Assembly (NCBI GenBank): GCA_032622095.1 | Contig: CP136066.1 | Coordinates: forward strand, 187,028,716-187,092,715 | From: Siphonodentalium dalli | Lineage: Eukaryota; Mollusca; Scaphopoda; Gadilida; Siphonodentaliidae | Direction: 5' to 3' | DNA: 64,000 nt | Shown here: positions 37,274-53,024 of the stretch, piece by piece | Layout: each line of letters begins with the position of its first letter | Position numbering within the stretch: position 1 is the first letter of the stretch | Notes under the pieces: generated by a model | What the model was told of the DNA's origin: nothing | Databases searched by the model: none | Seen by the model: only the letters and a program-made list of their open reading frames with translations | Translations under genes and position numbers: made by a program

Positions 37274-38207
37274 TGCACGATGACGAATTCCATGGGATAC
37301 TTCGTTTAATGTTGGCACTCCGATCTCTTTTACTGAGATTTTACATGCCAGCTTTGTCACACCCAACCTTCTGGACTCGAATTTAAATTATAGTAGATAT
37401 TCAAGATGCTTAACTGGAATATACGAGCGGGATACGCCGTATAGAATAAATGTGTGATCACGACGTGATATGCGACTGAGGTCGTCACGTGATTTGTATC
37501 GATCTATAGAAACGCTGAATAGCGATGCCTTTTCTTTTGTATATAGTTGCAGTGCGGGAGCTATGGTGGTGGTGTTTTCTTCACATCGACCCATCACGAG
37601 TTCGTATTCCATATAATATATTTATACACGGATGGCACAAGGGATGTTCTATATATTCTTTAACTTGAATACATTTACCCATGTATATTTTGATCGCCAG
37701 AATGGAAATATGACATAAAAATATAAGTATGTCTAATTGTTTGGTAGAAACTTTAATCCAGCCCCTGGTGCCGTGGTTGAGTCGTTTGCAATCCATGCAA
37801 TGCCGGGTAGGATGTTCGAACTGCATTTTGCAGGTCATTCACGACGCCATTAAATGAATGTTCTTAAATCCCACCTTCACCCTTAGGTATGTAAGAGTGA
37901 CTAATTTTAGATTATTTAAATGTGCAACCATGCTGATATTCACTTTTCGTATAACAAAAATACGATTATACCCGAGTTCCTTGCAATTTCGCAGCAAATG
38001 GTTCCTGTGCGAACCAAAACTGGCACATTTACGTTGATAATGATTAATTTCTGATGCAAAAGTCACAACTTAGTTTAAACGCATAAACGCCGATATGTGT
38101 GATGTATGATAATCCTGAGATGGGTATAACAAGAACATATCAAAACTTCCAAGTGCGCCCAAAACTTTAAATCTTCACACATAAATCATTCAGCCCTTCT
38201 GGCTTAA
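37274..38207. other. Upstream of the PAN exon; no further gene
   Basis: This should contain the PAN gene's promoter, but no clear TATA or initiator was identified. A tRNA-like SINE candidate is listed separately. Confidence 0.35.
37766..37850 (+). other. Possible tRNA-derived SINE head
   Basis: TGGTTGAGTCG (37774-37784) resembles a pol III A box and GTTCGAACT (37814-37822) a B box, at tRNA-like spacing. The flanking arms do not form a good acceptor stem, so it is not called a tRNA. Confidence 0.25.
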
Positions 38208-38592
38208 CCCTTTACCCAACAAACCGGGCAAAAACGGCCAAATAAAGCTGCAACAGCCTAAATTATCTTGGGTCTGTCTCAATAAAACCATACAAATATG
38301 AATATCATTTGAACCGGCTCATTGACCACATTGTGATGGTTACAGTTATGCCCTGTGCCAATGCATTCCCTTATATATGCGAGTCGACCATAGGTCGCCT
38401 CGCATATATAAGAGAATGCATTGGCCTAAAAAAATACTTTTTTTTAACACTTTTTACCATTTTTTCTTACATTCTTTAACAATTTTTAATGTGTTAAGCC
38501 AATGCATTCTCTTATATATGCGAGGCGACCTATTGTCGACTCGCATATATAAGAGAATGCATTGGCACAGGGCCGTTCTGTTGGGTAAAGGG
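38208..38592. mobile_element. piggyBac-like MITE with double-hairpin core
   Basis: Ends CCCTTTACCCAACA and its complement, flanked by TTAA (38204-38207, 38593-38596), the piggyBac-type signature. Inside are two hairpins that are inverted copies of each other. Each contains CCAATGCATTCTCTTATATA and GCGAGTCGACC with their complements. The same core recurs in elements with other outer ends at 45793, 48537, 51206 and 52462. Confidence 0.88.
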
Positions 38593-38596
38593 TTAA

Positions 38597-39062
38597 TGCA
38601 TTCAGAAATCGATAATTAATTGCACCGGCCGTGATGACATGGCTTGCCCCACGTGACTGAGTACGTGAATTATACGTGAAACTTAATAATATGCAGGCGC
38701 GCAGAAAAAGGAAGTTACCCCATGGAATCAACACGGGTGGGAATAAAGTGCACTCTCATACTTCATATGATGGCAAGAAATACCGAGTCTCCTAAACGCT
38801 CTTTATTTTTAATATTGCCATTTTTTCCATCACCACAGTAATCACAGTTCCCTATAGATGGAAATTTAAAAGAACTGATGGCACTGAACTGCATACTTGT
38901 AATTGTGTTAAGCGTTGTGTTACTTAATGTTGAGATTCAAATGGAGGTGATTCGTACCTCAGGTCGAGTTAGTTGACACGTTTTTGACAGAAATTGTTTT
39001 CTAAAAATAAATTGTTTAGATTGAGTAAATGGAGACCGATTTTGGTCGCACAAGGGGCGTTT
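38597..39062. other. No recognised gene
   Basis: Short ORFs without domains, and nothing repetitive recognised. Confidence 0.45.
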
Positions 39063-40136
39063 TCTACATGTATATATATATATTGTGTGTGTGAGGGTGT
39101 GTGTGTGTATATATGTGTGTGGGTACTTCATAGAATCTAAAACGGCTGCGCGGATTGAGCTCAAACTTCCTATCTAAGGGTAAAATTCTACGGACACCGT
39201 CGGCGTCACGTTTTGGAGAAGCTCAGAGCACCCGTTCTCCACTCTCAGTTACAAAAACGGCACTGCGGTGGTTAATCAAGTGATAATTTAATGAGTGTTG
39301 TATATGACGCGTCGCTATAGTTTACAATTCAACGCAACGTTATCGCTCGAAATTTAGCATAGAAAAAATTTAATTTCTTTTATCAAAAACATAATTACGT
39401 GCTTATTTTAAGAATATATAAGTATTATACACATACACACCAAGTCTCAGCTTAACATTTTGAAAAATAAGAGTTTTATCGACATAAATCGATTTTAATG
39501 GGAAATTCTATGTTAAAATTTAGCATCGAAAAAATTTAATTTCTTCCATCTAAAACATAATTACGTGTTGGACTGTGTCATTTTAAGAATATATTAGTAT
39601 TACACGCAGTCACACAAAGTCTCAGCTTGAAATTTTGATAAATAAGAGTTTTATCGACATAAACCGATTTGAATGCGAAATCATGTGTTAATAAATTTTG
39701 GGACTCAGCTGTTCTTTGTGTTTTCTAAGCTGTTAAAAATTCTATGGAAGCAAAATGGTCAACTCGGGACGGGTCAACCGATTGAGCCCAAACTTGCTAC
39801 CTATGGGTACATTTGTCCCGAAAGTGTCACGGACGGGTCAAATCGTGACCCCGATGTGACATTGACCTTCAAACTGGTCAATCCAAGGTCAAATTGGGTA
39901 AAACTGGCGGATATCTGTACGTACTTTTGTCCGGGGAGTGTTTTGAACGGGTCAAATCACGACCACGACCTGGCCTTGACCTACAAAATTGTCAATTCAA
40001 GGTCAAATCGGGTAAAACTCGCTGATTTCGACGAAATTTGGTACAAATGCAGCACAAGTGTCTCGGAACCTGTTGCAATTGCTTTTTCGAACAAAGCCAT
40101 GGGACGAATGCCGCCAGTGGCGGGCTAACCTGCTAG
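39063..40136 (+). mobile_element. Helitron-like non-autonomous element, first of a tandem pair
   Basis: The 3' end has a short hairpin (CCGCCAGTGGCGG, about 40111-40123) followed about 10 bp later by CTAG (40133-40136) and then T. This is the terminal structure of Helitrons, which move by rolling-circle replication and insert between A and T without target duplication. The 5' end is placed near TCTACATGTATATATA. The body includes two copies, about 167 bp apart, of a TTTAGCAT...AAAAAATTTAATTTCT segment. A 151-codon ORF (39673-40128) lies over internally repeated AAGGTCAAAT words and is not a Rep/helicase. Confidence 0.65.
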
Positions 40137-40691
40137 TCTATACTATATATTTTGAGTCTTCCGAATATATATATATATATGTGTGTATATATGTGTGTGG
40201 GTACTTCATAGAATCTAAAACGGCTGCGCGGATTGAGCTCAAACTTCCTATCTAAGGGTAAAATCCCACGGACACCGTCGGCGTCACGCTTTGGAGAAGC
40301 TCAGAGCACCCGTTCTCCACTCTCAGTCACAAAAAACGGCACTGCGGGGGTTAATCAACTGATAATTTAACGAGCGTTGTATATGACGCGTCGCTATAAA
40401 AGAGCGTTTGTTTACAATTCAATACAACGTTATCGCTCGAAATTTAGCATCGAAAAAATTTAATTTCTTTTATCAAAAACATAATTACGTGCTGGACTCT
40501 GTCATTTTAAGAATATGTAAGTATTATACACATACACACCAAGTCTCAGCTTAAAATTTTGAAAAATAAGAGTTTTATCGACATAAATCGGTTTTAATGG
40601 GAAATCCTATGTTAAAATTTAGCATCGAACAAATTTAATTTCTTCCATCTAAAACATAATTACGTGTTGGACTGTGTCATTTTAAGAATAT
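40137..40691 (+). mobile_element. Helitron-like element, second copy, 5' part
   Basis: Begins TCTATACTATATATTTTG directly after the CTAG of the first copy, so the pair is head to tail. It then matches 39117-39600 (offset about 1078). Similarity stops at AGTATTACAC (about 40692), where the 164-bp satellite starts. No 3' end with hairpin and CTAG was found beyond the satellite. Confidence 0.65.
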
Positions 40692-43600
40692 ATAAGTATT
40701 ACACTATACGAAATTTCCTTCAAAATTGGTCGATTTTTACGAACCATCCCCCCAAGATATCTGAAGGTGGTCAACCGAGGGTCAACTGGTCCGGATTTTC
40801 TGTAGCGCGGCTAGAAATGGTGATTATGTGGGCATACAGCGACAGCTGGTGCCGCTAAATACTCAAACTATACGAAATTTCCTTCAAAATTGGTCGATTT
40901 TTACGTACCATCACCCAGGATATCTGAAGGTGTTCAACCGAGGGTCAACTGGTCCGGGTTTTCTGTGAGGCGGGTAGGAATGGTGATTATGTGGGCATAA
41001 AGTGACAGCTTGTGCCAATAAATACTCAAACTATACGAAATTTCCTTCAAAATTGGTCGATTTTTACGTACCATCCCCCCAGGATATCTGAAGGTGGTCA
41101 ACCGAGGGTCAATTGGTCCGGGTTTTCTGTAAGGCGGGTAGGAATGGTGATTATGTGGGCATAAAGCGACAGCTTGTGCCACTAAATACTCAAACAATAC
41201 GAAATTTCCTTCAAAATTGGTCGATTTTTACGTACCATCCCCCAGGATATCTGAAGGTGGTCAACCGAGGGTCAACTGGTCCGGGTTTTATGTGAGGCGG
41301 GTAGGAATGGTGATTATGTGGGCATAAAGGGACAGCTTGTGTCAATAAATACTCAAACTATACGAAATTTCCTTCAAAATTGGTCGATTTTTACGTACCA
41401 TCCCCCCAGGATATCTGAAGGTGGTCAACCGAGGGTCAACTGGTCCGGATTTTCTGTAAGGCGGGTAGGAATGGTGATTATGTGGGCATAAAGCGACAGC
41501 TTGTGCCACTAAATACTCAAACTATACGAAATTTCCTTCCAAATTGGACGATTTTTACGTACCATTCCCCCAGGATATCTGAAGGTGTTCAACCGAGGGT
41601 CAACTGGTCCGGGTTTTCTGTGAGGCGGGTAGGAATGGTGATTATGTGGGCATAAAGCGACAGCTTGTACCAATAAATACTCAAACTATACGAAATTTCC
41701 TTCAAAATTGGTCGATTTTTACGTACCATCCCCCCAGGATATCTGAAGGTGGTCAACCGATGGTCAACTGGTCCGGGTTTTCTGTAAGGCGGGTAGGAAT
41801 GGTGATTATGTGGGCATAAAGCGACAGCTTGTGCCACTAAATACTCAAACTATACGAAATTTCCTTCAAAATGTTTTCGATTTTTACGTACCATCCCCGC
41901 AGGATATCTGAAGGTGGTCAACCGAGGGTCAACTGGTCCGGGTTTTCTGTGAGGCGGGTAGGAATTGTGATTATGTGGGCATAAAGCGACAGCTTGTGCC
42001 ACTAAATACTCAAACTCTACGAAATTTCCTTCAAAATCGGTCGATTTTTACGTACCATCCCCCCAGGATATCTGAAGGTGGTCAACCGAGGGTCAACTGG
42101 TCCGGGTTTTATGTAAGACTGGTAGGAATGGTGATTATGTTGGCATAGAGCGACAGCTTGTGCCACTAAATACTCAAACTATACGAAATTTCCTTCAAAA
42201 TCGGTCGATTTTTACGTACCATCCCCCAGGATATCTGAAGGTGGTCAACCGAGGGTCAACTGGTCCACGTTTTCTGAAAGGCGGGTAGGAATGGTGATTA
42301 TGTGGGCATAAAGCGACAGCTTGTGCCACTAAATACTCAAACTATACGAAATTTCCTTCAAAATTGGTCGATTTTTACGTACCATCCCCCCAGGATATCT
42401 GAAGGTGGTCAACCGAGGGTCAACTGGTCCGGATTTTCTGTGAGGCGGGTAGGAATGGTGATTATGTGGGCATAAAGCAACAGCTTGTGCCAATAAATAC
42501 TCAAACTATACGAAATTTCCTTCAAAATTGGTCGATTTTTACGAACCATCCCCCCAGGACATCTGAAGGTGGTCAATCGAGGCTCAACTGGACCAGGTTT
42601 TCTGTAAGGCGGGTAGGAATGGTGATTATGTGGGCATAAAGCGACAGCTTGTGCCACTAAATACTCAAACTATACGAAATATCCTTCCAAATTGGTCGAT
42701 TTTTACGTACCATCTCCCCAGGATATCTTAAGGTGGTCAACCGAGGGTCAACTGGTCCGGATTTTCTGTGAGGCGGGTAGGAATTGTGATTATGTGGGCA
42801 TAATGCGACAGCTTGTGCCACTAAATACTCAAACTATACGAAATTTCCTTCAAAATTTGTCGATTTTTACGTACCATCCCCGCAGGATATCTGAAGGTGG
42901 TCAACCGAGGGTCAACTGGTCCGGGTTTTCTGTGAGGCGGGTAGGAATTGTGATTATGTGGGCATAAAGCGACAGCTTGTGCCACTAAATACTCAAACTC
43001 TACGAAATTTCCTTCAAAAATGGTCGATTTTTACGTACCATCCCCCCAGGATATCTGAAGGTGGTCAACCGAGGGTCAACTGGTCCGGGTTTTATGTAAG
43101 GCTGGTAGGAATGGTGATTATGTGGGCATAAAGCGACAGCTTGTGCCACTAAATACTCAAACTATACGAAATTTCCTTCAAAATCGGTCGATTTTTACGT
43201 ACCATCCCCCCAGGATATCTGAAGGTGGTCAACCGAGGGTCAACTGGTCCACGTTTTCTGAAAGGCGGGTAGGAATGGTGATTATGTGGGCATAAAGCGA
43301 CAGCTTGTGCCACTAAATACTCAAACTATACGAAATTTCCTTCAAAATCGGTCGATTTTTACGTACCATCCCCCCAGGATATCTGAAGGTGGTCAACCGA
43401 GGGTCAACTGGTCCACGTTTTCTGAAAGGCGGGTAGGAATGGTGATTATGTGGGCATAAAGCGACAGCTTGTGCCACTAAATACTCAAACTATACGAAAT
43501 TTCCTTCAAAATTGGTCGATTTTTACGTACCATCCCCCCAGGATATCTGAAGGTGGTCAACCGAGGGTCAACTGGTCCGGGTTTTCTGTGAGGCGGGTAG

Positions 43601-44400
43601 GAATGGTGATTATGTGGGCATAAAGCAACAGCTTGTGCCAATAAATACTCAAACTCTACGAAATTTCCTTCAAAATTGGTCGATTTTTACGAACCATCCC
43701 CCCAGGATATCTGAAGGTGGTCAACCGAGGCTCAACTGGACCAGGTTTTCTGTAAGGCGGGTAGGAATGGTGATTATGTGGGCATAAAGCGACAGCTTGT
43801 GCCACTAAATACTCAAACTATACGAAATATCCTTCCAAATTGGTCGATTTTTACGTACCATCTCCCCAGGATATCTTAAGGTGGTCAACCGAGGGTCAAA
43901 TGGTCCGGATTTTCTGTGAGGCGGGTAGGAATTGTGATTATGTGGGCATAATGCGACAGCTTGTGCCACTAAATACTCAAACTATACGAAATTTCCTTCA
44001 AAATTTGTCGATTTTTACGTACCATCCCCCCAGGATATCTGAAGGTGGACAACCGAGGGTCAACTGGTCCGGGTTTTCTGTGAGGCGGGTATGAATGGTG
44101 ATTATGTGGGCATAAAGCGACAGCTTGTAACACTAAATACTCAAACTATACGAAATTTCCTTCAAAATCGGTCGATTTTTACGTACCATCCCCCCAGGAT
44201 ATCTGAAGGTGGTCAACCGAGGGTCATCTGGTCCGGGTTTTCTGTGAGGCAGGTAGGAATGGTGATTATGTGGGCATAAAGCGACAACTTGTGCCACTAA
44301 ATACTCAAAGTATGCGAAATTTCCTTCAAAATTGGTCGATTTTTACGTACCATCCCCCCAGGATATCTGACATTGTTCAAACGAGGGTCAACTGGGTCCT
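40692..44400. repeat. 164-bp satellite, about 22 copies
   Basis: The unit starts ACTATACGAAATTTCCTTC and includes GGTCGATTTTTACG, CAGGATATCTGAAGG, CAACCGAGGGTCAACTGG and GATTATGTGGGCATAAAG. Units are 163-165 bp. A seven-unit block recurs 1148 bp apart (diagnostic GGATATCTTAAGG near 42720 and 43868). The last unit decays near 44400. Short ORFs across it are by-products of the repeat. Confidence 0.96.
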
Positions 44401-44402
44401 AT

Positions 44403-45804
44403 TTACAAAGAAGGTGGGTAGTAATTGTCATTATAGGAGTGTATTGTGGTTATATGATATTTGTTTTTCTTTAAAATACCATCGTATGGTAAATAGCGCA
44501 TATCGGTGGAATCGATATTTGCCATCCGATGGTAAATAGCCGCTGCAGATTCTAACGACAGGTTTTGATCCACAAAACAATTGAACCTGTTTGAAATAGG
44601 AACCTGGATGTTAGCCATCATGTCTCCGTCACATCTGGTAGCTTGCGATTCTGCTACATTTATCTCTGATACCATTGTGATATTCTCTGCGTTTTTATCC
44701 GTACACTCTTTAGAAGAAATACCGTCTATCATTCCTGATGTTTTTTTCATTTATATCTGCGATCTCTTTTCTCAATTTCAAATTATCAGCTTTCAGACAG
44801 ATTATATCATTTTCAAGTTCCGTAATTTGATGTTTAAAATCATTAGCCTGTTGCGAAAGAAGATTCTTAACATCTACTATAATATGAGTTATAGATTCTT
44901 GTTGATCTCTCTGTTCCAATTTACTTTCTTCGATGCTGATCTGTAATTCATCTACAGAAGATTTCAATGTCGACGTCGATATGAAGTTGCCTTTTGTAAC
45001 ACTGTTTACATTTTTATTATTCTTTTGACCAAAGCGACTGTGACCCATTAAACGTTTAGAAGTGTTGAAGGAAACAGTTTTATTTGGATTCCATTCAATG
45101 GGTCGCAGACGGTCATTAATATCCATGTCATGAATAATTGAAACACTATTTTCAAGTAGGGCGTTGTCATCATTTTCTTTCAATGACGAGATTTTCCCTT
45201 TAGGATAAATCACATGAAGAATATCAGAAATCTTTCCAAAATCAGTGTTGAAGCCAAGTCGATATACGTCTGGAAGAATATTGGTCAACCACCATGCGAT
45301 ATTAGGTTTAGGTCCCTATAACATGAGTTTATTTTGTGTTCTAAATGCATGGATAGTAACTTTGCATGACTTTGTTCTCGTTGGTACATTTAGTATATCC
45401 TCAACTTCAACGTTTTGGTTGTCGCAAACAATACGCCATACAGCGCCGTTCTTTTCTTTGGACTTACCGCCATCCCAATATTTCTTTGTCAGTCCTGTTT
45501 TATATTCCTCGAATCTGGCTGTGTCCATATCAAATGTTATGCACCTCCCCTTGTTCTTTACCTCAACATTCTCAAAATGAACGACCATTCTGTCATGTTT
45601 CCTCTTCGACACCTTGTCTATATCCAGAGAATAATCCCTTACTTCTTGGTTGGTCGTTCCAACGTCAACGATGTCATCTATGTCTTCCCTTGAAGCATCA
45701 TATTCCATGTCGAAAAGATCTCCGATGACCATGTCCAGTAGATTAGTTAGTTTCCGTACATTCCGTAGCACGACAATGGGTGATAAATTTATGTGACCCG
45801 CCAT
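44403..45804 (-). pseudogene. Unknown coiled-coil protein ORF, broken
   Basis: I do not recognise this protein. A minus-strand frame runs from 45804 to 44710 with a single TAG at 45318-45316 (LML, stop, GPKPNIAWWL). A frame change in a seven-A run near 44750 then leads into a further open stretch to 44403. The N-terminal third is acidic (DIDDIVDVG). The middle has KVTIHAFRTQNKLML next to the stop. The part before the frame change (SVDELQISIEESKLEQRDQQ to LENDIICLKADNLKLRKEIA) is a likely coiled coil. The layout resembles an ORF1-type protein of a transposon, but no family is asserted. The first four codons lie in the adjoining MITE (45793-46251), so the true start is unknown. Confidence 0.55.
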
Positions 45805-46251
45805 ATCAAATCCAGTCGTAAGTCGGGATTTTTTTTACCCTGTGCCAATGCATTCTCTTATATATGCGAGTCGACCATAGGTCGCCTCGCATATATAAGA
45901 GAATGCATTGGCCTAACAATGTTTTACAATTTAAAAAATAAATTCTTGTAATTAATTTTTAACAATTTAATAATTTCACCCATACAGAGCCCCAGACAAA
46001 CATGAGCAGACGACACTCTTCTATGTGCTTCTATATATGTGTGGGGCTCCCTGCATGGTAATGGATGTTTTTTATTTTATGTCCTAAAAATTGTAAGAAA
46101 CATTTATTTAAAAAAAATGATAAAAAATTGTTAGGCCAATGCATTCTCTTATATATGCGAGGCGACCTATGGTCGACTCGCATATATAAGAGAATGCATT
46201 GGCACAGGGTAAACAAAATCCCGACTTACGACTAGATTTGGATTTGGTCAC
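45793..46251. mobile_element. MITE with GTGACCC ends and double-hairpin core, copy 1
   Basis: The left end GTGACCCGCCATATCAAATC and the right end closing with TTTGGTCAC are inverted repeats extending about 50 bp inward. Inside are two mirror-image hairpins with CCAATGCATTCTCTTATATA and a third hairpin pair around GAGCCCCA and TGGGGCTC. The other copy is at 52462-52894, in the opposite orientation. No clear target duplication is seen here. Confidence 0.82.
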
Positions 46252-46921
46252 AAATGGAGGGATGTTCAGGAAAAATAAGCAGACCTATGGTCGTTTGTTG
46301 AACTTATTATCTGAACATTTCCCCAAGGGATAACTCATCAATGAGTATTATTTAGTATAGAAAGTGTTACCCGGAGGGCTATTATTTGCATATTATACAA
46401 ACAAAAACAGTTATATTTTAAATTTTATTGAATGTTAAACTTCAGAAAAGAGATAAAATTCAAAACATAGAACTATATTCACCAATTTGCTGAGAGTCTC
46501 AAATCATACATAGATTTATTACAAGTAAAACTAAGGCGCAAAAATTACAATAAAGCAACATGGACAATCATATAAATAAAAAGATTAATTTTGAACAGAA
46601 AAAATGAAACGAAATTCTTTCATGAATACAACCCTGACTATATACCAGCAATAAATTCAATGCAAAATTAGCTAAAGTTGGATCAAATCCACACGCAATA
46701 TTTAAAATATGGAAATGCATTCATCGAAAATCTAACACAAGAGCATCAAAAACAATATTAATGGAACTAACTGGGCCCCAGGAAATAACTAACGCAAAAT
46801 GTAAAATTAATTTTTATGCCGTTATGGCACAGTGGATGTCGGATCTGGTGACTTAAACAGAGTGCATAGACTCCATATAGGTTACAGACAACTAATTAGT
46901 TTCCATAGGCGGCAGTGTTAA
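46252..46921. other. No supported gene; one ATG-less open stretch
   Basis: A plus-strand frame of about 68 codons, ending at TAA near 46856 (ILMELTGPQEITNAKCKINF and so on), looks mildly like a LINE C-terminus but has no decisive motif. Confidence 0.25.
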
Positions 46922-47240
46922 AGGCACGGATGGACTTCGTGGTGGGTATTGCTGTCAAAATAGTCACATCCATTAAAACCGCCATAAACAGAAAGCAGAT
47001 TAAAATATAAACATAATTTGTTCTTATACCAATCATACATATCGCTTAAATAGTGTGTTATATTGTCAAGTTCGCAGCTTTTGTTGTGTAAACAAAAAGC
47101 AAAAAAACGAGCTTGACAATAACAAACAATTTACGCGTTATTTATGATTGGTATAAGAACAAACTATGTCTATATTTTAATATTCTTTCCTTTTATGGCA
47201 GTTTTAACGAGCATACCCACTGCGAAGGCCATCCGAGCTT
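46922..47240. mobile_element. Foldback MITE with TTAA flanks (AGGCACGGATGG)
   Basis: Flanked by TTAA (46918-46921, 47241-47244). Imperfect inverted arms of about 110-120 bp run from the ends (CGGATGGACTTCG, TGGGTAT) to TTGTTCTTATACCAATCATA and its complement, around a centre of about 95 bp. No ORF. Confidence 0.8.
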
Positions 47241-47244
47241 TTAA

Positions 47245-47992
47245 CTGTAGTTCCCACCAGCGATAGGTTAAGCCTATTTGAACTTCAAATTTTGACTTTT
47301 CCCCCTAGAACGTCATCCGATACACCGCTAGGGGACAACAAACGCGTCCTTTTCGGTATTTAAAAAAAAAGATAATCTTGCATTTCCATAACTACCCCAT
47401 TTAATGCATAAAATCAGCAGCATACAACCCCTTCCATAACCTCGGGACCCCACGAGACTCTCCTGACCATCTAAACAAAAGTTATCACCATGTTTACGTA
47501 TATATCGGCTATGATTTTCTCATCCGGCTCAGGGAATTATCCCTCAACGATAATCAATCAATCACAGCCATAATATTTTTGTTATGTTGACTCGAGTCCA
47601 AGAAGCGTAACTCTATGTAATTAGTTGCTTGTAACCAATTCCGGCTCCGCGGACTGGCAGGTAACAACCAGAATGAAGAGTCGAATGGTATCCGAAAGGA
47701 GCGAATCCGACGGCTACATGCACATGTATCTACAAGTCAACAAAGGAATTAATAAATTTAAACACGTGTACGAGTATAAAATAGGTGTATTTATATCGTG
47801 ACGGAAGAGGAATGTATCTGTAGAACATATTAAAGTGGGAATGTTTTATGGGTTTTGGGACCCAATTTTACAGGTACTGGTTTCCTCGCCCAGGTAGGGT
47901 CCAGGAGTGGTTTATATAATTTGGAAAAGAGATTTGGAACGCACATACGAAAGTAAAGTTAAATTGCTAAAAACTATAATTTAGACAGTTAA
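47245..47992. other. No recognised gene
   Basis: Mixed-composition DNA with only short ORFs. Confidence 0.45.
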
Positions 47993-48410
47993 AGGCCAAC
48001 TTAATTTTCGAATCACCAGATCACATATTATTATATACAACATTTATCATATTTTATGCCATTTGAAAGAGGAAGCTCCAAAACATTGTATAATCAATTT
48101 TTCGAATAAATGTTGTTTTTGTCAAGGTACGGACGTGCGTTCTGTCTTTAATTTCGATCTTGTCTGTAGTGACAGTTTATTATTCTCAACTGAAGGGGAA
48201 TAATTCTATCTTTTAGTTGTGAATTATGCTGCATTCTATGGTAAATAACGGGATAAGTCTTGAGGTGAATGAGAATTTTTGGTGGACACTTGCAAGGTCA
48301 CACGTATTATGGTGGAATATATATATATCATTTGGTTCCTCTTCCAAATTATAAATAATATGGAATGTTGTCTTTAGTGTGATCTGGGCATTCACAAATT
48401 AAGTGGACCT
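47993..48410. mobile_element. TTAA-flanked MITE (AGGCCCACTTAATTTTCGAA family), copy 1
   Basis: Starts AGGCCAACTTAATTTTCGAA and ends AATTAAGTGGACCT, between TTAA at 47989-47992 and 48411-48414. It shares the interior ATTTGAAAGAGGAAGCTCC with 55509-55953. Confidence 0.85.
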
Positions 48411-48536
48411 TTAAAAAAGTTAATAATATTTTCGAAAAAGGTCGAAATGACACTGGAGAACTCCATCAACTGCTAGCACTTAATTTGTGTTTTCATATAT
48501 ATAAGCGACGCCATAATTATCCTCTTCGGCACTTAG

Positions 48537-48795
48537 CCCTTTCATGACGGGAGCTGCGCTGGTGCAGCTTTAAAAACCCCGTGCCAGTGCATTCTCTTAT
48601 ATATGCAAGTCTCCCATGGGGAGCCTCGCATATATAAGAGAATTCACTGGCTTACGAGGTCAAGGTAACTTTTGTTAGGCCAATGTATTCTCTTATATAT
48701 GCAAGGCTCCATATGGCAGACTCGCATATATGTGTAAGAGAATGCATTGACACAGGGTTTTCGCAAAATTTCAGGAAGCTCCAGTCATGGAAGGG
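48537..48795. mobile_element. CCCTTTCATGAC MITE with double-hairpin core, copy 1
   Basis: Outer ends CCCTTTCATGACGGGAGCT and the near-complement AGCTCCAGTCATGGAAGGG, flanked by TTAG on the left and TTAA on the right (48796-48799). The core has the two CATTCTCTTATATATGC hairpins, with a changed loop (CTCCCATGGGGAG). Confidence 0.82.
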
Positions 48796-48799
48796 TTAA

Positions 48800-49212
48800 C
48801 TGGCAAGAATGTACTAATCGAGCAAACTCCACGCAGCGCCCCCTACGTTATCACTGCGATCTCAGCGGAGCGATGGGAGATAACTCTGCCTGGAGTTTGC
48901 TAATCGAGTTCTGACCGTCCGCAGCTGTCACTTCCGGCTAAAATTGCCGACCATACCGTGTTCACGGTGATGGTAATATTATAGGTCGAACGCATTTCCG
49001 GAATATGGCTTTCGTCAATATCATAAGATCAATTTAAGCAACATTTTTATGGGTAGTAGGTAAGTATTTTATACTAGAAGAGCATATATATATGTATCAT
49101 TTCTATTTAAAACAAAAGCATCAAACAACAATATGCATGTAACTGGGCATGTAACTAAGTCAGTTTGATAAACGCATGCAGCGACAATATTTCAAGGAGT
49201 ATTATTTGATAT
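48800..49212. other. No recognised gene
   Basis: Includes an imperfect inverted pair around AATCGAGCAAACTCCACGCAG (near 48820) and TGCCTGGAGTTTGCTAATCGAG (near 48887), each quoted only as a landmark. No coding potential. Confidence 0.4.
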
Positions 49213-50358
49213 TATTATCCATCCCTTAACTAACACCATTTCCGATTGGGCAAAAGCCGCCACGTGATCGTTCTGGAAAAAGTCATATTGGACTCCCGAA
49301 AGTCATATTGGACTCCCGACTGTACAATATGACTTTTCATATTGGACTCCGTGACGTCACGAATTTACTCTATTGCGAAATGAATCGGTGAAATTGTGAT
49401 GCGCGCGCAACATTGATGGATTTTAGCAGACGTTTCACTTCCGCATTGAGTTTTTTCTCACTTCCGTGTTTACTTTTCCAAATCATGCTTTCTGATTATC
49501 AATATACGGTACAGGCCTTTATAGAGAATTAAGTGCCGACAAATACCAAAAATAACCACAAAAGTTTTATTTCCAAAATTTGGATAAACATACAGATGGA
49601 TAATACAAATGTCATTATACAATGTTGTGTACAGTATGAGTTTTTCTTGTACTCGTCCAGGTTGTGGTGAAAAATCATATTGGACTCGACACTGGCGTGT
49701 CTCGTCCAATATGATTTTTCACCACAACCTGGACTCGTACAAGAAAAACTCATACTGTACACAACATTGTATAATAACTTTATACTATTATCCATCACTT
49801 AACTAACACCATTTCCGATTGGGCAAAAGCCGCCACGTGATAGTCCGGGAAAAAGTCATATTGTACTCCCGAATGTCATATTGGACTCCCAAGTGTGCAA
49901 TATCACTTTTTGATAGGGACTCTGTGGCGTCACGAATTAACTATTGCGAAATGAATCGGTGAAATTGTAATGCGCGCGCAACACTGGTTGATTTAGCAGA
50001 CATTTCACTTCCGCATTAAGTTTTTTTTCATTTCCGTGTTTACTGTTCCAAATCATGCATTCTGATGATCAACTACAGGCTTTTATAGAGAATTAAGTGC
50101 CGACAAATACCAAAAATAACCACTAAAGTTTTATTCCCAAAATTTGGATAAACATACAGATGGATAATACAAGTTACAATGTTGTGTTCAGTATGAGTTT
50201 TTCTTGTACTCGTCCAGGTTGTGGTGAAAAGTCATATTGGACTCGACGCTGCTTGTCTATAGTCCAATATGACTTTTCACCACAACCTGGACTCGTACAA
50301 GAAAAACTCATACTGTACACAACATTGTATAATAACTTTATATTATTACATCATATGA
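49213..50358. repeat. Two tandem 573-bp units with large foldbacks
   Basis: TATTATCCATC-CTTAACTAACACC starts at 49213 and again at 49786. Each unit ends in a long inverted repeat; in unit 1 the arms span about 49595-49796 with a loop of a few bases. The arms contain ACAATGTTGTGTACAGTATG and GGTTGTGGTGAAAAATCAT with their complements. The words CATATTGGACTC also recur in the unit body. This could be a foldback transposon duplicated in tandem. Confidence 0.85.
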
Positions 50359-50701
50359 ACACATGCAACATAGCTCTTGCTGCTTGTGTCCGCCCATCAA
50401 GTTTAACAATAGTTAAAGATGGTGTATCTCTTCCAGGTCACAATTACAACATCAAAAACAACAACAACAACATAATGTTTATAAAAACGATTTCAAGACT
50501 ACGAATAACCTTTTCTGTGAATATAACACAGAAAAAACTGAAGATTGTGAATGTTATTCGTATATAAATCCACAATAAAGTCGTTTATTCATGTAAAATA
50601 TCTGAATTCAAATGGCATTCTACCTTGACGGAGAGTACTACACGATAGAGTTGTCCCTCTTGATATGTATATATACACTTCGAGTGCGCCTGAAGTTAGT
50701 T
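50359..50701. other. No recognised gene
   Basis: AT-rich, with an AAC-rich microsatellite near 50455. Short ORFs only. Confidence 0.45.
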
Positions 50702-50705
50702 TTAA

Positions 50706-51137
50706 AGATACTCAATCCGATTCGACGGTCCCCATATCACCATATACCAACAACAACAACAACAATTTTTGAAATGCCGCTTCGTTATCAGAATCGATTA
50801 ATTGCCCAAAAACAATGCTAACCACAGTCAACTATAGTATAAAATTGCCCAAAACCTGTTATTTACTAACGTTTTGTTCAACGAAATTTTGCCAGTTGTC
50901 AAAATATCTGACACAAAAAAGCCACTGGATTTTAGAGTTATCGATCTTCATCCGCTATCTGGTCAGATAAGTTCTTCTCATCGACATTTTACTGGGCCAC
51001 TTTAATTAAAATAATAGATTTCAAACATCGATATCTGATCACTTTGATGGATGGGTTCCTCGACTCCAATCAGATATTGTTTACCCCCGAAGCCACGCAA
51101 ATAGTAATTTGCGAGCGTTAATTCGGATTGAGTACCT
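50706..51137. mobile_element. TTAA-flanked MITE (AGGTACTCAA family), copy 4
   Basis: Starts AGATACTCAATCCG and ends CGGATTGAGTACCT, with TTAA at 50702-50705 and 51138-51141. The interior is more diverged than in the first three copies. Confidence 0.85.
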
Positions 51138-51205
51138 TTAAAATTAAAACTGTCCCGAAAGGTTGTATGTATTATACCAGAAAATAGAAATAAAATAAAT
51201 ATTAA

Positions 51206-51397
51206 CCCTCTCACGACGGGAACTGAGTTGGTGCAGCATTAAGGATTCCCATGCCAGTGTAGGGAGCCTCGTATGTTTATAAGAGAATGCATTGGCTCAA
51301 GGTAAATATTGTTATGCCAATGTATTCTCGCATATATCAGAGAATGTAATGACACAGGGTTTTTTCAAAAATTCAGGAAGCTCCATTCATGGAATGG
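51206..51397. mobile_element. CCCTTTCATGAC MITE with decayed hairpin core, copy 2
   Basis: TTAA at 51202-51205 and 51398-51401. Ends CCCTCTCACGACGGGAACT and CTCCATTCATGGAATGG. The hairpin core is shortened, with deletions in both halves, compared with 48537-48795. Confidence 0.75.
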
Positions 51398-51515
51398 TTA
51401 ATTGATAGAAACGTTTCCGGAAATGAATATTCGATTCATGTTTGTTATCTTATATGGCCAGAAACTATATAAAACTTGTTAGGAAGAGATAGACCATCTT
51501 TAAGGGAGACTATTC

Positions 51516-51900
51516 GCCAATTTCAATAAATTTCCAGAAATAACGATCTAATATCGATAATGTATAGAAACATAATTAATTTGAGTCAATAATATCTTCT
51601 GTAAACATTCAGGTTATCATAAAATCAAATTTAGTAATTTAATATAAATTTACTTTTGATTCCAGCCATAAACCAAGTTACGAATGTCCACGTACAAGAC
51701 GTAATAAAATTAATTTACGGATAGTGGATTGGGCAACGCGTGGCACATGCACATCGTGTAAAAATTATGTTGATACGGGCGTGAACTCAAGCCACTCGCT
51801 GACTATACAATAAAATTATTGAGTATCTGTGACTATTATTCATACAATATAACATTTATTTCATACATTAATTTGCCTGAAACTGTACAAAAATATCTCG
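51516..51900 (+). repeat. Diverged duplication, copy 1
   Basis: Similar in order and content to 53025-53405, sharing AATATCGATA, AATTTGAGTC, TACAAGACGTAAT and AACTCAAGCCACTC. An old duplication with many indels. Confidence 0.7.
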
Positions 51901-52457
51901 ATAATGAGCGTTCCATTTTTGCATTCCGGCTTATATGTCATCTGTAACATTACTTCGTACATTCCGGCTTATCTGTCATCTGTAAGATTACTTCATAGTA
52001 GACAGTCAATTAATGGAAATCTGTTACAATATTCAACGAAGGAGAGAATATATAAACCAATAACAACATTTGAATACAGTACCCCTTTAAAGTAAAGTAA
52101 CATACTTGAACCTATCCAGGTTTTGAGACAATTAATCGTGATATTCGCCTTACCAAACGAGAGATTTATAATTTCCAAATGTACATGTATTTCAGACATG
52201 AAAGAATGTAAATCTAATATGAGGTACTGTTATGAGAACCAACAGGTGGCATACTTGTACCATTGTACTTTAAATACATGACTTACCAATTATGTGTTAA
52301 TTAAAATCGATACATTTTACAGATGATACCAATGTCCTGCACTCGGATTATTTTCAAATGTAGAACAAGAAGATAAGTGTAAAGAAATCATACTTCATCA
52401 TATACTGACGATAATATTATTCTGATCACTGCTGCTGACACGAATGATAGTGTTTGC
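51901..52457. other. No recognised gene
   Basis: Only a 63-codon ORF without a domain. A short direct repeat (CATTCCGGCTTAT...GTCATCTGTAA) lies at about 51921 and 51961. Confidence 0.45.
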
Positions 52458-52461
52458 AAGT

Positions 52462-52894
52462 GTGACCCGCCATATCAAATCCAGTCGTAAGTGCCCTGTG
52501 CCAATGCATTCTCTTATATATGCGAGTCGACCATAGGTCGCCTCGCATATATAAGAGAATGCATTTGCCTAACAATTTGTTATCATTTTTTTTAAATAAC
52601 TACAATTTTTAGGACATAAAATAAAAAAACATCCATTACCCTGCAGGGAGCCCCACACATATATAGAAGCATACAGAAGAGTGTCGTCTGCTCATATTTG
52701 TCTGGGGCTCTGTATGGGTGAAATTATAAAATTGTTAAAGAATACAAGAAAACATTATTAAAATTGTAAAAAATTGTTAGGCCAATGAATTCTCTTATAT
52801 ATGCGAGGCGACCTATGGTCGACTCGCATATATAAGAGAATGCATTGGCACAGGGAAAAATCGACTTACGACTGGATTTGATATGGCGGGTCAC
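52462..52894. mobile_element. MITE with GTGACCC ends and double-hairpin core, copy 2
   Basis: A 433-bp element with perfect 4-bp direct repeats AAGT (52458-52461, 52895-52898). Ends GTGACCCGCCATATCAAATC and complement. The two mirrored hairpins and the GAGCCCCA pair match 45793-46251 in reverse orientation. The superfamily is not decided. Confidence 0.88.
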
Positions 52895-53024
52895 AAGTAT
52901 TTTTAAATTGTAAATGTCTTTCGGCTCAAATCACTGGTAAGCGAACATTGGCTTGAGAAAGGGGGGATGGTTATCTTTCACATTGTTATTTTCTTTCGGC
53001 GGAACATTTGCTTAAGGGTTACTG

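Follow-up and report, generated by a model that had tools for sequence, protein, structure and literature searches.

Among described systems, the closest precedent for the elements reported here is provided by the CMITEs of the coral Acropora, six families of miniature inverted-repeat transposable elements (MITEs) whose terminal repeats differ and which have CCC tips and TTAA duplications (Wang et al. 2010, PMC2872659). According to the available text of that report, the CMITEs contain a conserved 75-bp inner region of unknown origin, occur in tandem arrays, and were estimated at ~1,600 copies in A. millepora (PMC2872659). We analyzed a window of 64,000 nt from the scaphopod mollusc Siphonodentalium dalli (the window is the whole stretch of DNA under study, and element coordinates count from its first letter), together with the genome around it. 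At least four kinds of small non-coding transposon, termed here types A, B, C and D, have different outer ends and enclose as their core a hairpin module, usually as an inverted pair around a linker. With a probability of about 0.7, these elements are non-autonomous DNA transposons (MITEs) that were built by exchange of ends and cores and multiplied by transposases acting in trans.

The likeness to the CMITEs, which is one of description only, comprises different ends, TTAA, a 75-bp inner region and arrays; here, the 75-nt inner consensus is identical in types A, C and D behind different tips. The left tip of CMITE family VI, CCCTTTCACTGCCA, is close to type D (PMC2872659). The present families differ in copy number, with >150,000 hairpins against the ~1,600 CMITEs, and the available text of the coral report describes neither a hairpin pair in the inner region nor a non-TTAA family, a core-free sibling or a comparable chimera (PMC2872659). 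What the present families add to that text is the larger scale, a palindrome in paired form, a non-TTAA family with the common core, the core-free sibling and the apparent recombinants.

MITEs of the piggyBac superfamily have the TTAA duplication and the CCC/GGG tips seen in types A, B and D, whereas type C differs by a 4-bp AT-rich duplication and GTGACCC tips; none of the elements in the window contains an open frame of at least 130 aa. Helentrons are a rolling-circle class of element. The oyster Cg_HINE elements resemble the present families in the modular mixing of flanks and central repeats, and differ in being Helentrons with satellite-like tandem central repeats, as far as their available description goes (PMC7492417). 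The foldback elements Tetris and DAIBAM likewise have inverted-repeat arms, inner tandem arrays, and end portions common to two elements; in the accessible part of that account it is the outer portions that are shared, whereas here the inside is common, the tips differ, and each arm is itself a palindrome (PMC4079207).

The consensus hairpin, CCAATGCATTCTCTTATATATGCGAGTCGACCATAGGTCGCCTCGCATATATAAGAGAATGCATTGG, is a near-perfect palindrome of 67 bp with a 3-nt centre and one mismatch. Because of this mismatch the hairpin has a direction, with CCCTGTG facing outward and CCTAACAA, or a variant such as CTTAACAC, facing inward. Genome-wide counts are exact matches in a 2.23-Gb assembly of nine contigs, eight of them 190 to 301 Mb long; those of end types are likewise exact-match counts and not annotations of full elements. 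The first 20 bases of the arm have 157,061 and 157,073 exact copies on the two strands (314,134 in all), and the same pattern written backwards has 0. Since an intact hairpin has two arms, the genome contains at least ~157,000 hairpins. The outer border GAGAATGCATTGGCACAGGG occurs in 152,016 exact copies. When 6-kb stretches were taken at set places in eight contigs, 3 of 16 contained the hairpin (7 matches in total), always within A, B or D-related elements. An exact 26-mer gave no match in prokaryote and virus collections, and a search of the literature by text, outside Repbase and Dfam, listed no paper on the hairpin.

Consensus sequences were drawn from non-redundant full-length copies, 18 for A-left, 23 for A-right, 43 for C, 14 for D, 15 for B-1 and 5 for B-2. 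Over the 75 nt that begin with CCCTGTG and end with the inner GGC, both A sequences and those of C and D are identical, and those of the two B hairpins differ from them. Copies match their own consensus at a mean identity of 96-99% for A, C and D, as against 90-91% for B. The core in A, C and D is thus common to the families and recent: the same module at the consensus level stands behind these three end types, and an older form of it behind B. The inner AT-rich linker belongs to the shared part in A, C, D and some B copies. An earlier note on this DNA, made from the letters alone, had named many copies of the core with several end types and a sharp boundary as support for its reading, and loss of the similarity on alignment as refutation. 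Such copies are present, the boundary lying at CCCTGTG, and the similarity persists on alignment.

Type A consists of TTAA, CCCTTTACCCAACA...TGTTGGGTAAAGGG and TTAA, and has two hairpins. Its copy in the window occupies 38208-38592 on the plus strand (38204..38596 with TTAA on both sides), with hairpin 1 at 38358..38424 (plus; one C-for-T change in the first arm) and its inverted copy, hairpin 2, at 38499..38565 (minus). Type B, with TTAA, CCCTTTCATGAC...GTCATGGAAGGG and TTAA, is more diverged and usually has a short linker, as does the plus-strand element at 48537-48795 (48533..48799 with its flanks TTAG/TTAA). Both of its hairpins are of the older variant: hairpin 1 (48584..48650, plus) has the inner stem CTCCC/GGGAG and hairpin 2 (48680..48750, minus) a 4-bp insertion. 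A degenerate B element on the plus strand at 51206-51397 (51202..51401 with TTAA on both sides) retains hairpin remnants only. Type C begins with GTGACCCGCCATATCAAATCC... and has two hairpins, GTGACCC tips and a 4-bp AT-rich duplication. The plus-strand element at 52462-52894 (52458..52898 with the duplication AAGT) ends in GTGACCC/GGGTCAC and contains hairpins at 52501..52567 (plus) and 52782..52848 (minus). The other C element of the window (45793..46251, plus) has a damaged right end, the flanks TTAT/AAAT and no clean duplication; its hairpin 1 at 45845..45911 (plus) has the consensus sequence and hairpin 2 lies at 46136..46202 (minus). Type D, found outside the window, reads TTAA, CCCTTT(G/C)AGTGCCAGG..., and has a single hairpin. 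The stretches between tip and hairpin are unlike on the left and right in A and B, and long and near-symmetric in C only.

The earlier note had described these five window elements as sharing a mirrored hairpin pair. Four of them (38208, 45793, 48537 and 52462) do contain two hairpins of 67-71 bp, one an inverted copy of the other, and the remnants at 51206 do not amount to such a pair. Single hairpins, folded with DNA parameters (one per element, n=4), reach -27 to -36 kcal/mol with z of -9.6 to -15.3, and 0 of 200 shuffles matched the fold energy of these four. The 20-mer said to lie in each hairpin occurs exactly four times on the plus strand of the window and five times as its reverse complement, the remaining scanned arms having 1-3 changes. 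Three end types are real, as the note had it, but two of them are not unrelated, A and B both beginning with TTAA and CCCTTT and hence being of the same, piggyBac-type class of end. As for the proposed flanks, TTAA holds at 38208 and 51206 and AAGT at 52462, whereas 48537 has TTAG/TTAA and 45793 has TTAT/AAAT.

Flanks were compared across the fetched loci (labelled L with a number; C1 denotes one contig), which were mostly retrieved via exact matches, a selection biased toward young copies. Types A, B and D have inverted-repeat tips of the form CCCTTT.../...AAAGGG or a close variant, in agreement with a CC[C/T]T tip. As in piggyBac-type elements, TTAA adjoins 46 of 49 A ends and 48 of 57 D ends; it also adjoins 27 of 39 ends found with the B pattern, a loose one that caught arrays and at least 2 chance places as well, and 0 of 60 C ends. 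The 4-bp flanks of type C are identical in 14 of the 20 elements with both flanks (ATAT, ATTT, AAAT or AAGT), and 91% of flank positions agree against 78% with partners exchanged, a high baseline that comes from a strongly ATAT-like target. Four of the exact matches have words other than ATAT (ATTT twice, AAAT and AAGT); among the 6 of 20 elements with non-identical flanks, two (L089 and L090) are near-duplicates. Duplications of 4 bp are found in several transposon superfamilies, and we take Sola, or another superfamily of this kind, as an unconfirmed lead for type C. Genome-wide, exact end matches number 91,621 for A (at least ~45,800 elements at two ends each), 20,553 for C, 11,478 for one of the two B ends, and 15,227 for D, its hairpin-free sibling included. 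Outer borders followed by A or G, unlike the known flanks, make up 1,496 of 152,016 (1.0%). Twenty of these loci were fetched: 18 proved to be elements of type A, B or C in which one base has changed, and the other two (L051 and L054) match type C on the inner flank, their outer flank being unassigned; a fifth end type was not established among them.

Among the loci fetched, which include 8 of 128 piggyBac transposase matches, an autonomous partner was not found for any end type, type C included. The candidates considered were rejected: C ends lying 4.3 kb apart belong to two complete C elements, a 2.4-kb pair of A ends bounds an A element that contains an insert but lacks a long open frame, and a 1.4-kb C element has an interior of foreign DNA with a Bcl-2-like gene. 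In this last element (L088 752-1180, C1:4495800-4497900), the foreign DNA has GC-rich repeats at its boundaries and lies between outer half-hairpins, and a 142-aa open frame in the insert matches Pfam Bcl-2 with an E of 9e-11. C ends of similar spacing are grouped at C1:4549553.

Evidence that ends and core are separable comes from elements that have the ends without the core and from elements that join two families. A simple palindromic MITE that has no hairpin (L023 3500-3706) is likewise bounded by the D end CCCTTTCAGTGCCAAGTCCGATTTTTGTATCAACCCATAT, and the homology between D and this sibling runs to ...CCCATAT, one base short of the core border. Of 20 D-end loci picked from 100 listed, several chosen for closely spaced end pairs, which favours the hairpin-free form, 13 have no hairpin, 6 have a hairpin or an arm, and the interior of one was not fetched. 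B ends occur without a hairpin in tandem arrays (L010, L031 and L036). A survey of the outer and inner flanks of 231 non-redundant hairpins allowed both sides to be assigned for 168, of which 159 are concordant and 9 discordant. Two of the discordant hairpins appear to switch family: at L023 (5030-5111) a D interior is joined to an A end beside an oppositely oriented A element, and at L099 (663-744) a B-like end, a B hairpin and a B linker are followed by a young hairpin and a C end. Five others (L103, L144 twice and L146 twice) result from internal deletions. In L104 a C element lies within a B hairpin, flanked by ATAT at either end, an arrangement that L096 repeats by its single fetched flank. 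The last, L085, is a B form with an AT-rich linker, a complete B-ended element with TTAA on both sides and near-young hairpins; L008 resembles this form at its single visible end (B end, near-young hairpin and AT-rich linker). Since D ends are found on an unrelated, hairpin-free core and the D/A and B/C switches lie at the hairpin, ends and cores have been exchanged. Of the alternatives offered in the earlier note, it is therefore the swapping of ends around a conserved core that is supported, in line with the identical 75-nt consensus of A, C and D.

The exchange most likely occurred at the hairpin itself, and in the 21 A elements 16 of 24 deletion breakpoints fall in the hairpins, which make up 34% of the element (p 0.001). 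The palindrome would have been the site of template switching, gap repair or ectopic recombination. A palindrome near the tip may stall copying or extrude, after which a broken end may copy from the hairpin of another family and thereby change its tip; with two mirrored hairpins, the new tip could be copied onto the other side also. Copying to both sides in this way would account for type C, whose arms are long and symmetric, but not for A and B, whose asymmetric arms would fit capture of filler during gap repair. Stalling, template copying and filler capture are steps of general repair models. Insertion of C elements into B hairpins would be a further route by which families are joined. Each end type was presumably copied by its own transposase in trans, probably a piggyBac-type enzyme for A, B and D and a separate one with 4-bp duplications for C. 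The likely order of the families leads from B through B with a near-young hairpin and an AT-rich linker (L085 and L008) to A, C and D.

Several observations weigh against a history of exchange at the hairpin. A ends are joined to the core in 49 of 49 cases and C ends in 59 of 60, and separability is accordingly shown for D and B only. A hairpin-free A sibling was not found among 20 fetched loci with something other than C after the left arm (19 out of 454 such places, and one further place), all of them being changed or deleted cores. In the flank survey, 63 of 231 hairpins lacked an assignment on at least one side, and only two of the nine discordant ones are clear family switches. Deletion breakpoints are not enriched in the hairpins of the 22 C elements (4 of 10, p 0.33). 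The linkers of A, C, D and L008, each represented by a single sequence, reach scores that 0 of 500 shuffles attain in any of six comparisons, but as these linkers are AT-rich and simple, their similarity is weaker evidence than the scores imply. Eight of 128 piggyBac transposase matches were fetched and none shows any of the four kinds of end, the one A-like word, in L043, lying inside a coding stretch without TTAA. Finally, the sampled loci are mostly within the first 100 Mb of contig C1.

Whether the hairpin matters as a fold was addressed by its conservation and covariation. Between B and the other families the stem changes are paired, with G-C to T-A and A-T to C-G at the consensus level, and a further one, A-T to G-C, is present in five copies. 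Over 35 distinct rows the covariation score reaches 0.121; shuffles give 0.075, with 0 of 500 as high, and slid structures no more than 0.042. This score may be inflated by the relatedness of the rows, and pairs with double changes (6 vs 5.7) and pair types (23 vs 22.1) do not exceed the shuffles. In 12 C elements chosen by their ends, a set that includes 3 near-duplicates, changed bases amount to 27 of 1,538 in the hairpins and 26 of 1,177 in the middle (p 0.40), so this single fair test shows no constraint on the hairpin at the level of copies. Strong hairpin conservation in A was set aside, as those loci had mostly been chosen by hairpin or A-end sequence. Individual copies seem to decay freely, the founding copies having kept their palindromes, which could reflect either selection for the fold or repair of an arm from its partner; a host function for the hairpin need not be invoked. 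For the earlier suggestion that the core may matter as a fold, the paired changes between B and the younger families speak in favour; the hairpins of the 12 C copies, not clearly more conserved than the middle of the element, do not.

A bolder form of the exchange hypothesis, which we hold to be unlikely though worth stating, is that the palindrome acts as a selfish inner module that promotes breakage and template switching, jumps between ends of different superfamilies and gives the ends it acquires an advantage in amplification. If so, one 75-nt sequence would have ridden several transposases to >150,000 copies, never with ends of its own.

Rather improbable, in our judgment, is common descent from one ancestral TTAA element, whose tips would have been replaced or would have diverged stepwise while the core was kept as a subterminal signal for the transposase. 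A, B and D all begin with CCCTTT after TTAA, as this would predict, and the stem changes that separate B from the others are paired. The coral CMITEs have the same pattern, and the available part of that report includes its authors' suggestion that tip and core may suffice (PMC2872659); subterminal palindromes are used by piggyBac ends, according to the accessible text of another study (PMC11707139). However, the duplication of type C differs although its core consensus is identical, the D end recurs almost letter for letter in a MITE without a core, and the C hairpins are not clearly more conserved than the middle.

A third possibility, which the earlier note had raised, is that the core is a transposon in its own right, which would insert into other MITEs and then be carried along as an element within an element. 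Its sharp border, CCCTGTG...CACAGGG, in the outer contexts seen, and the resemblance of CCCT/AGGG to a piggyBac tip speak for such an insertion. Yet no target duplication of the core's own was seen in A, B, C or D, D has a single hairpin instead of the complete core, and few sampled copies lie outside the known families. TTAA stands directly at the core border in 337 places, against 152,016 borders counted with a pattern of slightly different length; the single one of the 337 that was read belongs to a C copy in which the A-run is altered. As far as sampled, the core is not a free mobile unit, and the idea of its independent insertion, which we consider quite improbable, was not upheld. That the hairpins might instead be expressed small-RNA precursors kept by the host would, from sequence, agree with their stable folding and paired stem changes, but it is highly improbable given a palindrome that is near-perfect, has a loop of 3 nt and does not resemble a typical microRNA (miRNA) precursor, a copy number of >150,000, the lack of per-copy constraint, and an Rfam scan of the region whose 43 matches up to E 1 were all below curated cut-offs and spread over many unrelated miRNA families.

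Tandem arrangements were observed in connection with type B. At L010 (C1:541700-544900), B-type hairpins lie head to tail with a period of ~97 bp inside a ~1.5-kb duplication, and this array may be a MITE core turning into a satellite. The B end is itself repeated in tandem at L036 1767-2025, with a 37-bp unit starting TTAACCCTTTCATGACGGGAGC, and near 5365 of L031. At C1:820017-926242 matches recur every ~11.17 kb, in keeping with a large tandem duplication. Within the window, 49608-49781 and 50175-50329 are two copies of a different palindromic element with arms of 85 and 69 bp; it gave sub-cut-off matches to miRNA families and is perhaps a further foldback MITE. A tandem repeat with 164-bp spacing occupies 40585-44490; of its 23 register positions, 16 resemble the reference at 94-98% and 6 at no more than 64-73%.

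The reading of these elements as MITEs assembled by exchange of ends and cores bears on two open questions, the origin of MITE families and the great abundance that a few inner sequences attain. The intermediates coexist in one genome, where the same end is found with and without the core, the core lies behind both TTAA and non-TTAA ends, and some elements switch families at the hairpin. The S. dalli genome thus allows one to ask whether palindromes drive the exchange of ends, and whether it is the inner sequence, and not the ends, that sets copy number.

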